From a virus: a stretch of 29,473 bases of DNA. The first letter of the stretch is position 1. Each line of letters opens with the position of its first letter. The position numbers and the translations under genes were made by a program. Positions 24,294 through 29,131 of this stretch are shown here, in pieces. The stretch lies in IMG/VR virus record IMGVR_UViG_3300005860_000051, positions 1 through 29,473 of that record. One strand, written 5' to 3'. The notes beneath the pieces are model-generated. The model was given only the letters and a program-made list of their open reading frames with translations. It did not search any database and had not been told where the DNA came from.

Positions 24294-24363
24294 GAGGCTG
24301 TAGATTAGTAGAAATCGGCGCTCCCTATGGGCGCAGACGCTGGTGCAATTCCAGCCAGTCTCG
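24294..24363 (+). tRNA. tRNA-like cloverleaf with CUA (amber) anticodon
   Basis: The sequence folds into all four arms with no bases left over. Acceptor GAGGCTG/CAGTCTC (7 bp, one G-T), linker TA, D arm GATT-AGTAGA-AATC (4 bp), G26, anticodon arm GCGCT-CCCTATG-GGCGC (5 bp), AGAC variable loop, T arm GCTGG-TGCAATT-CCAGC (5 bp), discriminator G at 24363. The middle of the anticodon loop is CTA (24325-24327), which would read UAG. Odd points: C instead of U at 33, U at 37, a 6-nt D loop without GG, G instead of T at position 55 of the T loop, and no encoded CCA. It is either a divergent suppressor tRNA or a tRNA-like ncRNA. The short D loop recalls tRNA-Pyl, but other Pyl marks are absent. Confidence 0.5.
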
Positions 24364-24391
24364 CAAATAGTTAAACAATTGGATTTTTCTC

Positions 24392-24419: not shown

Positions 24420-24437
24420 AGAAGTAAACAATAACTT

Positions 24438-24445
24438 AAAGGTCA
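24438..24445 (+). promoter_or_regulatory. AAAGGTCA box 12, in the leader RNA
   Basis: AAAGGTCA lies 19 nt after the -10 box of P1, hence within the transcript, and 21 nt before a short ATG frame (24467). AGGTCAA here is perfectly complementary to TTGACCT at 24484-24490 in the same leader. Confidence 0.65.
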
Positions 24446-24460
24446 AACAAATAAACAATA

Positions 24461-24530
24461 GGAGGAATGGGGCACGCCGCGGGTTGACCTATTTTGGGTA
24501 AGTCCTCATTCCTCCCCCGCGGTTTTTTTT
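24461..24530 (+). promoter_or_regulatory. Leader RNA with alternative hairpins (attenuator)
   Basis: Two mutually exclusive stems. Stem A: GGAGGAATGGGG (24461-24472) with CCTCATTCCTCC (24504-24515), 12 bp with one G-T. Stem B: CCGCGGG (24477-24483) with CCCGCGG (24516-24522), 7 bp of pure G-C followed directly by eight T, the form of an intrinsic terminator. Stem A would act as antiterminator; the box 12/TTGACCT pairing offers a third state. It ends 6 nt before the ATG of the replication-initiator-like gene, so this gene is probably controlled by transcription attenuation. Confidence 0.65.
24467..24487 (+). CDS. Possible leader peptide MGHAAG
   Basis: ATG at 24467 opens a six-codon frame (M-G-H-A-A-G) ending in TGA within the leader RNA. 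The AAAGGTCA box lies 21 nt upstream as for real genes. A GGAGGA abuts the ATG, too close for normal use. A ribosome here would open stem A and sit on the 5' half of stem B. Speculative. Confidence 0.3.
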   Translation: MGHAAG

Positions 24531-24536
24531 ATTATT

Positions 24537-25286
24537 ATGGAAGAAGAAGTTCAAATAAAAAGAAGTTTCTGGGCGTTTATTCCTTCAATGGCCTTATCTG
24601 ATAAATCTTTATCTTCTACAGCAAAGTTAATTTTGGCTGAAATTTATTCTTTAGCGGATGAAAACGGAGTATGTTATCCAAGCAATAAACATTTCTCTGA
24701 AATTTTAGGAATAAGCGAAACTCAAGTAAGTAAATGTATATCTCAACTTAAAAAAAGAGGATGGGTTGATATTGAAATTATTCCAGAAAAAGGAAATTTG
24801 AGGGTCTTGAAGATAAATTTAAGAGGTATTGATGAAAAGTTAAAGAGGTCTTATCAAAAAGTTAAAGAGGGGTATTGTCAAAAAGTTAAAGAAAGAAATA
24901 CATATATAGAAAATCAATTAGAAACTCAATTAGAAAATAAAATTATTATGTTCTCTAAAGAGAACAGGAAGACTTCGTCTTCTTCTTATGGAAATTCAGA
25001 TATTAACTACTTAATGGAAAAATTTAAAGAAATAACGGAACTTAAAAAGATGGACGGTTCAGAAAAACAAAATAGGCGTTATTGTTGGCTTTGCATTAAA
25101 AAGTTTAACGGAAAAGAAAATGTGGAGAAACTCTTAAAAATAGCAGTTAAATTTGATTTTCATAAAGCCAATCTTACCAGTTTCAAATATCTGTATTATC
25201 ATGGAGTAAAAATTTTGAATGAATTCAAAGAAAAGATCAAACATCCAACTTATATTGAAATAAAAAACGGAAAAATAGTAAGATGA
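24537..25286 (+). CDS. Replication-initiator-like protein with winged helix
   Basis: 249 residues. The N-terminus (KRSFWAFIPSMALSDKSLSS, AKLILAEIYSLADENGVCYP, SNKHFSEILGISETQVSKCI, LKKRGWVDIE) is the winged-helix domain typical of phage replication initiators and helix-turn-helix replisome organisers. A linker rich in Ser (residues 140-160) leads to a C-terminal helical domain with YCWLCIKKFNG. It should bind the origin and help load the host helicase. It is controlled by promoter P1 and the attenuator leader, and overlaps the next gene (ATGA). Confidence 0.75.
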   Translation: MEEEVQIKRSFWAFIPSMALSDKSLSSTAKLILAEIYSLADENGVCYPSNKHFSEILGISETQVSKCISQLKKRGWVDIEIIPEKGNLRVLKINLRGIDEKLKRSYQKVKEGYCQKVKERNTYIENQLETQLENKIIMFSKENRKTSSSSYGNSDINYLMEKFKEITELKKMDGSEKQNRRYCWLCIKKFNGKENVEKLLKIAVKFDFHKANLTSFKYLYYHGVKILNEFKEKIKHPTYIEIKNGKIVR

Positions 25287-25666: not shown

Positions 25667-25676
25667 AAAAGGGTTC

Positions 25677-25704
25677 TTGACTTTTTTAAAAAAATTTTTA
25701 TAAT
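25677..25704 (+). promoter_or_regulatory. Strong sigma70-type promoter P2
   Basis: TTGACT (25677-25682), 16-bp spacer, TATAAT (25699-25704). The stretch CTTGACTTTTTTAAAAAA is shared exactly with P1, and the whole 31-bp promoter differs by one base. It drives the small genes from 25753 on. Confidence 0.8.
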
Positions 25705-25752
25705 AGTAAGTGAAAAAAAGATAATATAAAAATACATTAAAAAAACAAAACA

Positions 25753-25950
25753 ATGAAAGCAAAAGAAAGAAAAAAAATAAAAATGGAAATGTATAACTGG
25801 TTGTGGGAAAACTATAAGAATGAATATACGATGCAAGAATTAACAAAAACACTTGGAATTCCTCTTTCTACTTTTGCCAGATATATTATGGAATATAGAG
25901 AAAAAAAAGAAGAACAAAAGGTCGAAAACTTAAATCAAAAAAATGAGTGA
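25753..25950 (+). CDS. Small helix-turn-helix protein
   Basis: 65 residues, basic. MQELTKTLGIPLSTFARYIM is a helix-turn-helix pattern (helix, GIP turn, recognition helix), preceded by a Lys-rich N-terminus and followed by a charged helix. Probably a transcription regulator of the early genes. It lies about 50 nt downstream of P2. Its last codons contain the AAAGGTCG box for the following gene. Confidence 0.6.
   Translation: MKAKERKKIKMEMYNWLWENYKNEYTMQELTKTLGIPLSTFARYIMEYREKKEEQKVENLNQKNE
25917..25924 (+). promoter_or_regulatory. AAAGGTCG box 13, inside a reading frame
   Basis: AAAGGTCG within the 3' end of the HTH gene, ending 18 nt before ATG 25943. Confidence 0.6.
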
Positions 25951-28036: not shown

Positions 28037-29131
28037 GTGTTCTGGTTTTTAAAAAAACGACAATTTAAAACAGGACTTTTACCAGACAATAGAAAGCCAG
28101 AGGAAAGAGAAAAAGATTATTTAACTTGCGAATTATTAGAAGCGGAACCGATAACTTGGATAGATTTTGAACAATGGAAACAAAAGCCAGAAATTCAAAA
28201 GATGTTAAACGAATTGCCAGTTTATTCACAAAATGGGAGTAGTTCCTGTGTTAGTCAATCAATTGCTTTAATAGCAACAATAAACAATTGGAAAGAAGAA
28301 GGAAAAGCAATTAAATTTTCAGCGAGGGGAATATACGCCAGAAGGAGTAATAAGCCCAACGAAGGAATGAGATTTTATGATGCGGCAGAATTATTCAGAA
28401 AGTATGGAGCAGTTCCAGAACCGCTTTTGCCAAGTCAAGATTTAAACGAAGAACAAATGAATAAATTAGATGATTACTTGCCATCTTACGATTTGATTGG
28501 GAAAATATATGCTCCCACAAATTATTTCTGGGTGAATTCATTTGATGAGATAGTTCAAATTGCTTCAAGAAATTATCCAGTTCAAATAGGGGTTAGGTTT
28601 GGTCCAGGAGAATGGGATTATGTAGTGCCACGAATTATAACTTCTTATACTTTATTTGATTTAAAATTTGGTCATAGTATAGTAGTTTTACCATATTCTT
28701 ATTTTCTTTATGGAGGTAAAAGAGCGGTTTTTATTCAAGATTCTTGGAATTATGGTAGGGGATTGAATGGTAGAAGGATTTTAACAGAGGATTGGTTTCA
28801 AGGAGCAAGATTTATGGGGGGTCTTTGGTATGAGGATATAAATAACTTTGCAGTGTTTAACGCTTCACCAGCACAATTGCCAAAATACCAATGGACAAGG
28901 GATTTGTATGTAGGTTCAAGAGGAGAAGATGTAAAAATGCTTCAATTGGCATTAGGAATGATAAAAGATGAACAAGGGTATTTGTTTCCTTTGATTAGTC
29001 AAGTTCCAACGGGGTATTACGGGGGTCTTACGAGAAATGCGGTTTTAAGATATCAAAAATTATTCAATTTATTGCCTACGGGCATATTTGATACTCCTAC
29101 ACGATTGAAACTAAATGAAATGTGTAAATGA
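28037..29131 (+). CDS. Papain-like cysteine peptidase with peptidoglycan-binding domain
   Basis: 364 residues from GTG 28037. Peptidase domain: YSQNGSSSCVSQS (Q65, C71), FGHSIVVLP (H213), and QDSWNYG (D235 or N238), the Gln-Cys-His-Asn/Asp order of C1-type peptidases. C-terminal about 290-364: peptidoglycan-binding fold with YVGSRGEDVKMLQ, GYYGGLTRNAVLRYQKL and PTGIFDTPTRLKLN, a form frequent in Patescibacteria. There is no signal peptide. Probably an endolysin or virion-associated peptidase cutting the peptide part of the wall or surface protein. The frame after its TGA stays open into a membrane-like segment. Confidence 0.75.
   Translation: MFWFLKKRQFKTGLLPDNRKPEEREKDYLTCELLEAEPITWIDFEQWKQKPEIQKMLNELPVYSQNGSSSCVSQSIALIATINNWKEEGKAIKFSARGIYARRSNKPNEGMRFYDAAELFRKYGAVPEPLLPSQDLNEEQMNKLDDYLPSYDLIGKIYAPTNYFWVNSFDEIVQIASRNYPVQIGVRFGPGEWDYVVPRIITSYTLFDLKFGHSIVVLPYSYFLYGGKRAVFIQDSWNYGRGLNGRRILTEDWFQGARFMGGLWYEDINNFAVFNASPAQLPKYQWTRDLYVGSRGEDVKMLQLALGMIKDEQGYLFPLISQVPTGYYGGLTRNAVLRYQKLFNLLPTGIFDTPTRLKLNEMCK

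Follow-up and report, generated by a model that had tools for sequence, protein, structure and literature searches.

A leader RNA of three mutually crossing helices conserved upstream of phage early genes

A leader RNA of about 90-105 nt, apparently undescribed so far, stands at the head of replication operons in a group of related phages. Its pairing segments combine into three helices, each of which crosses the other two, and comparison of the copies indicates that this three-helix structure is almost certainly a real conserved RNA. The element was found in the window (the whole stretch of DNA analysed, a 29.5-kb IMG/VR virus record) and in 11 related phage contigs, giving 12 copies in total, 11 of which are countable. 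Neither the window nor the relatives have an Rfam match at the curated threshold.

Anatomy and covariation of the leader

The window carries genes of a tailed phage, including the large terminase, an SU10-type portal and the capsid. On its plus strand, the leader lies between a sigma-70-type promoter, P1 (24392-24419; TTGACT, 16 nt, TATAAT; 11 of 12 consensus matches), and a gene at 24537-25286 encoding an HTH_36 protein of 249 aa. Transcription from P1 is expected to start near 24426. A preliminary description of this DNA had placed the leader between P1 and a replication initiator gene, and it is evident that both the position and the identity of the gene hold (Pfam HTH_36, 2.8e-12; phrog_270 replication initiation protein, 5.7e-18).

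From 5′ to 3′, the segments of the leader run C5, J, A5, L1, B5, C3, L2, A3, B3 and the U-run, all on the plus strand. Helix C joins C5 (24440-24446, AGGTCAA) to C3 (24484-24490, TTGACCT) by 7 bp. Helix A joins A5 (24461-24472, GGAGGAATGGGG) to A3 (24504-24515, CCTCATTCCTCC) by 12 bp, one of them G-T. Helix B, the putative terminator helix, joins B5 (24477-24483, CCGCGGG) to B3 (24516-24522, CCCGCGG) by seven G-C pairs and is followed by T8 (24523-24530), the U-run of the predicted intrinsic terminator. These pairings and T8 had all been proposed in the preliminary description, and they were confirmed to the letter. The three helices occupy six separate segments with zero bases in common. C3 lies flush against B5, and B3 lies flush against A3; both joints measure 0 nt in 11 of 11 copies.

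The unpaired segments differ in length and in conservation. The A-rich junction strand J14 (24447-24460) reads ACAAATAAACAATA in the window, with the group consensus GCAATTAARCAATA; it is 14 nt long in 10 of 11 copies and 16 nt in L002, and its almost fixed letters (CAATTAARCAATA) are conserved in all 12 copies. L1 (24473-24476), a short linker that leads from the distal end of helix A to that of helix B, measures 3-9 nt in the relatives. L2 (24491-24503), the loop joining C3 to A3, has 13 nt in the window, 6 nt in L002 and 24-28 nt elsewhere, and it is largely fixed (CWATCATT..YACRCTA) in copies other than those two. All 12 copies have a terminator-like end, namely helix B followed by T8 or by T4CT4/T5CT4 (T4CT4 or longer in the relatives), and the end of stem B is 14-28 nt from the start codon of the next gene in all copies. 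In most copies, additional A-U pairs can lengthen helix B into the U-run (AAAGGGCGCC/GGCGCCCTTT), which is usual in ordinary intrinsic terminators.

In a scored scan for this crossed layout, the leader of the window reaches 68. Dinucleotide-shuffled versions of the leader stay below this value in all 5,000 cases (maximum 54.5), and the maximum over 4.2 million strand-bases of controls is 51.5. The scored scan superseded an earlier and looser structure scan, which gave too many chance hits. A minimum free energy check, which the preliminary description had proposed, was also run: the nested-only fold of the leader is unremarkable (z = -0.67), and this test is uninformative here because the three pairings cross one another.

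MAFFT put the variable arms in wrong positions with raw as well as with padded leaders, and pairs were counted on helix arms set in register (alignment A5). In this alignment, which is built on the proposed helices and samples phages related to each other, 252 of 252 paired cells in the 11 countable copies are standard pairs, and 22 of the 27 pairs carry changes on both sides (6/7 in helix C, 10/12 in helix A and 6/8 in helix B), whereas none of 500 shuffles reaches any of five measures. Pairing falls to 45-59% when the partner is slid by 1-3 columns. It is 100% for a copy's own arms, compared with 61% (A), 66% (C) and 81% (B) for swapped arms. Helix B is less variable than A and C, with 4 distinct arm pairs among 11, and 173 of 20,000 arm permutations reach its observed pairing. 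The preliminary description had proposed a functional leader RNA and had suggested a search for compensatory changes in stems A and B and in the pairing of its "box" AGGTCAA with TTGACCT, which is helix C. Such changes are found in the relatives and are strong in all three helices, in support of a functional RNA. The combination of variable helices and fixed unpaired strands seen in this sequence comparison is the mark of a folded RNA.

The same comparison removes two other elements of that description. The six-codon frame MGHAAG (ATG at 24467), read as a leader peptide, rests on A5 letters that vary in the relatives and is not conserved. As for the box, regarded as a possible factor-binding site, the letters of C5 vary among copies (AGGTCAA, GGTCGG, GGGACG, GGAAGTC, GGCCG etc.), and only the pairing is kept. 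Counting both orientations, the window contains AGGTCAA 8 times, which by estimate is only modestly above chance.

Distribution and gene context

Related phages were gathered from viral contigs by initiator and terminase searches. The scored scan detected the crossed layout in L002, L003, L004, L016, L020, L022, L023, L026, L029 and L032, with scores of 63-73, and a pattern scan added L028, whose helix A has one bulge. Two pattern scans on different conserved parts returned an identical group. The copies in the relatives always lie on the sense strand upstream of an early gene. Promoters of the P1 type are also found upstream of the element in relatives, and records that were read for the most part contain a single copy each. 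Searches of cellular genome contigs with the initiator profile and the element pattern found nothing. Annotated phages yielded no close relative in a DNA search, a single 27-nt match (E 0.1) in the element search and at most 36% identity in the terminase search. No copy of the element was found in phage contig G005 (36.7 kb).

The first genes after the element belong to several families. An initiator of the window type follows it in the window, L003, L004 and L032, and an O-like initiator in L026 (phrog_9773, 1e-31) and likewise, by sequence similarity to it, in L028. Two further families without assigned function follow it in L016/L020 and in L022/L023/L029. The first gene of L002 encodes a small protein with hydrophobic stretches, and the initiator lies farther downstream. 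According to the preliminary description, the leader might sense a factor and self-regulate the replication system. Self-regulation by this initiator does not fit the distribution, as the identical RNA design also precedes unrelated first genes. With first genes this diverse, sensing of one particular initiator is unlikely, and a signal common to the phage group appears more likely.

Two extra hairpin modules between the promoter and the core are conserved and freely mixed among the phages. One of them, with a GGGCTCCTTG loop, is present in L002 (4100-4150), L022 (390-440) and L032 (5780-5830), and a similar hairpin is present in L020 (1040-1090). The other, GCGGGCGG..CCGC, is present in L003 (1510-1560), L026 (395-445) and L032 (5830-5880), and L004 has a shorter hairpin at this place. 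Both modules are found in L032, and neither is found in L016, L023, L028, L029 or the window.

Topology, terminator gating and alternatives

The order C5 A5 B5 C3 A3 B3 is of the pattern ABCABC. This "pseudotrefoil" is genus-1 class 1C, to which a survey assigned 51 sequences, compared with 1,688 of pattern ABAB (PMC3390330); it is a topological class and not a family, so its equality with the abstract topology of the leader does not imply homology. Read as the blocks C5-J-A5, B5-C3 and A3-B3, the leader is a three-way junction with a non-circular block order, in which the terminator stem B is the third arm. The type-SGC/CSG permuted hammerhead ribozymes are likewise natural three-stem junctions with a non-circular 5′-to-3′ block order, in which all helices cross (PMC10085705), the assignment of ABCABC to type-SGC hammerheads being our own reading of the published block order. 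The leader differs from them in having two junction strands of 0 nt and one of 14 nt, in lying in an mRNA leader and in ending in a terminator. A hammerhead ribozyme was also considered for the leader itself and rejected: the junction order agrees, but the CUGANGA core is absent from all 12 leaders.

Stem A had been described as excluding stem B, and the leader as a set of three competing pairings. Exclusion does not follow from the sequence, as A and B do not overlap; nor do the pairings have to compete, given that they use separate bases, meet at flush joints and can be accommodated together geometrically. In a coarse rigid-body model, which represents only phosphates and axes and shows what is possible rather than what forms, A-form helices under linker-length limits leave room for A, B and C together even in the tightest copy (L002), the angle between A and B being acute. 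The only fit that failed was that with an L1 of 0 nt; A and B are compatible once the linker has at least 1-2 nt. Steric exclusion of B by A, expected at first for coaxial stacking, was abandoned on the basis of these acute-angle fits. That all 11 countable copies retain both flush joints suggests that the helices stack within a single fold.

When the elongating transcript is folded with nested pairs only, the optimum contains C at the point where C3 is complete in 10 of 11 copies, and it contains helix A in full or for the most part (at least 9 of 12 pairs) before B3 exists. Stacking energies summed over the three helices amount to -44 to -58 kcal/mol, with no pseudoknot penalty included, compared with -24 to -36 for the nested optimum. 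On the whole, it is somewhat more probable than not that the element is a cis-acting leader RNA at the head of the replication/early operon, in which folding of the junction would gate an intrinsic terminator through a mechanism and a trigger that we infer. During transcription, C5 would pair with C3 first; A5 would then pair with A3, inside and across helix C; and B5 would pair with B3 last, giving a three-way junction with its strands in the non-circular ABCABC order. Helix B and the adjoining U-run would be the third junction arm and the intrinsic terminator at once. With C and J14 in place, B5 would be held at the junction beside the emerging B3, B would close and transcription would stop. 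Without C or an intact junction, B5 would be buried in the loop of hairpin A, B would close poorly and transcription would read through into the replication genes. The folding order in vivo, termination itself and the direction of the switch are all predicted, and the trigger might be a ligand, a host or phage protein, or the speed of the polymerase. J14 and L2 are candidate binding strands on sequence grounds, and J14 could also be conserved for a reason unrelated to gating.

The general attenuator layout, a G+C-rich stem and a U-run between promoter and first gene, is present in 12 of 12 copies, and the leader as an attenuator is plausible if unproven. Of the attenuator in the preliminary description, the conserved terminator-like end, stem B with the T-run, is supported, and the peptide frame and the competing pairings are not. 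A conserved leader frame and bases common to terminator and antiterminator, as in a trp-type peptide-leader attenuator, were not found in the leader. The mutually exclusive form of the attenuator, in which hairpin A would be an antiterminator holding B5 in its loop, C would tip the balance and only A or B would form at a time, is an unlikely alternative to gating by the junction. Alternative pairings in attenuators normally share bases, whereas A, B and C have none in common, the flush joints point to one fold, and coexistence is sterically allowed. The energies of A and B alone are nearly equal in most copies (e.g., -13.5 and -13.0 in L016, and -12.4 and -13.1 in L026), which would also fit a plain switch between A and B, as would the formation of A before B3 is made; in the window, however, A (-18.3) far outweighs B (-12.4).

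Other terminator-coupled leaders offer partial parallels. Attenuation of pIP501 repR by antisense RNA (PMC4981023) likewise limits replication at a terminator in the leader, downstream of the rep promoter and ahead of the initiator gene, whereas the conserved feature of the phage leader is a pseudoknotted junction; a consensus scan of three loci showed no promoter-like site on the opposite strand within the core. The crcB and pfl riboswitch motifs with overlapping terminators (PMC2864571) are also conserved, terminator-coupled leader RNAs with conserved unpaired nucleotides. Compared with these motifs, the phage leader has no Rfam match and no known ligand and is found only before phage early genes.

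Promoter, leader and U-run together make up a complete small transcription unit, and the compact pseudoknotted fold with its conserved unpaired strands J14 and L2 would suit a stable, mostly terminated small phage RNA of about 105 nt, decoy or antitoxin-like, with the early genes living on read-through. This is improbable, considering that the first early gene always follows the element at a distance of 14-28 nt, an interval that contains no further strong promoter, and that it is single in each record where most of the record was read. Still less probable is processive antitermination of the put or EAR type, in which the folded RNA would stay on RNA polymerase and make it terminator-resistant over the whole early operon. 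The one copy per early operon and the position right after the early promoter match HK022 putL, and put, too, is a structured RNA that closely follows the early promoter of a phage (PMC9378689); put, however, consists of two stem-loops of about 70 nt and antiterminates, whereas the leader has three mutually crossing helices and ends in its own intrinsic terminator stem. Translational control by a pseudoknot that helps or blocks ribosome entry, suggested by the closeness of stem B to the start codon (14-28 nt), is highly improbable, as no Shine-Dalgarno sequence is masked, most genes of the phage lack one and the conserved U-run would be left unexplained.

With regard to gating by the junction, a bolder version can be put forward tentatively. 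The intrinsic terminator may itself form an arm of the non-circularly permuted three-way junction, and tertiary folding into the ABCABC pseudoknot would thereby directly set transcription of the replication genes, possibly with a ligand or protein on the conserved 14-nt strand; the module, combined with several initiator families and optional hairpins, would then represent a new class of regulatory RNA. If this is true, phage biology would gain an undescribed structured RNA family, and the leader would be a rare natural ABCABC pseudoknot that is not a ribozyme, its terminator being an integral part of the fold and not an appendage. Since the element heads replication operons with initiators of several families, the replication decision of these uncultivated phages would also be directly testable on an RNA of about 100 nt that is amenable to in vitro transcription.

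Other features near the leader and its copies

A second promoter-like sequence resembling P1 in the window (25675-25717; 91% identity over 43 nt) precedes a small gene at 25753 and is not accompanied by the RNA element. Within the initiator gene, three direct repeats of approximately CAAAAAGTTAAAGAGG at 24840-24900 are possibly iterons of an origin. Clusters of 5-6 GTTAAC palindromes in about 80 nt, followed by TACTATA-type repeats, were observed within the first (putative initiator) gene of L022 (948-1028), L023 (699-779) and L029 (6165-6245), and they are candidates for a replication origin inside the initiator gene.

The closest relative of the initiator (80% identity) is in G001/L001, where the contig end (L001 position 1, G001 32081) falls exactly at the initiator start codon and the leader is missing, possibly owing to an assembly break at the structured leader. 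A short distance 5′ of P1 in the window there is a tRNA-like RNA (24294-24364; called by ARAGORN as tRNA-Pyl, anticodon cta), and G001 carries a copy of it at 28621-28700 on the minus strand. The acceptor-like stem of this copy is kept by compensatory change (GAGGCTG/CAGTCTC to GGGGCTG/CAGCCCC). Its anticodon-like loop differs from that of the window and ARAGORN makes no call there, so the RNA at 24294-24364 may be tRNA-like without acting in decoding.
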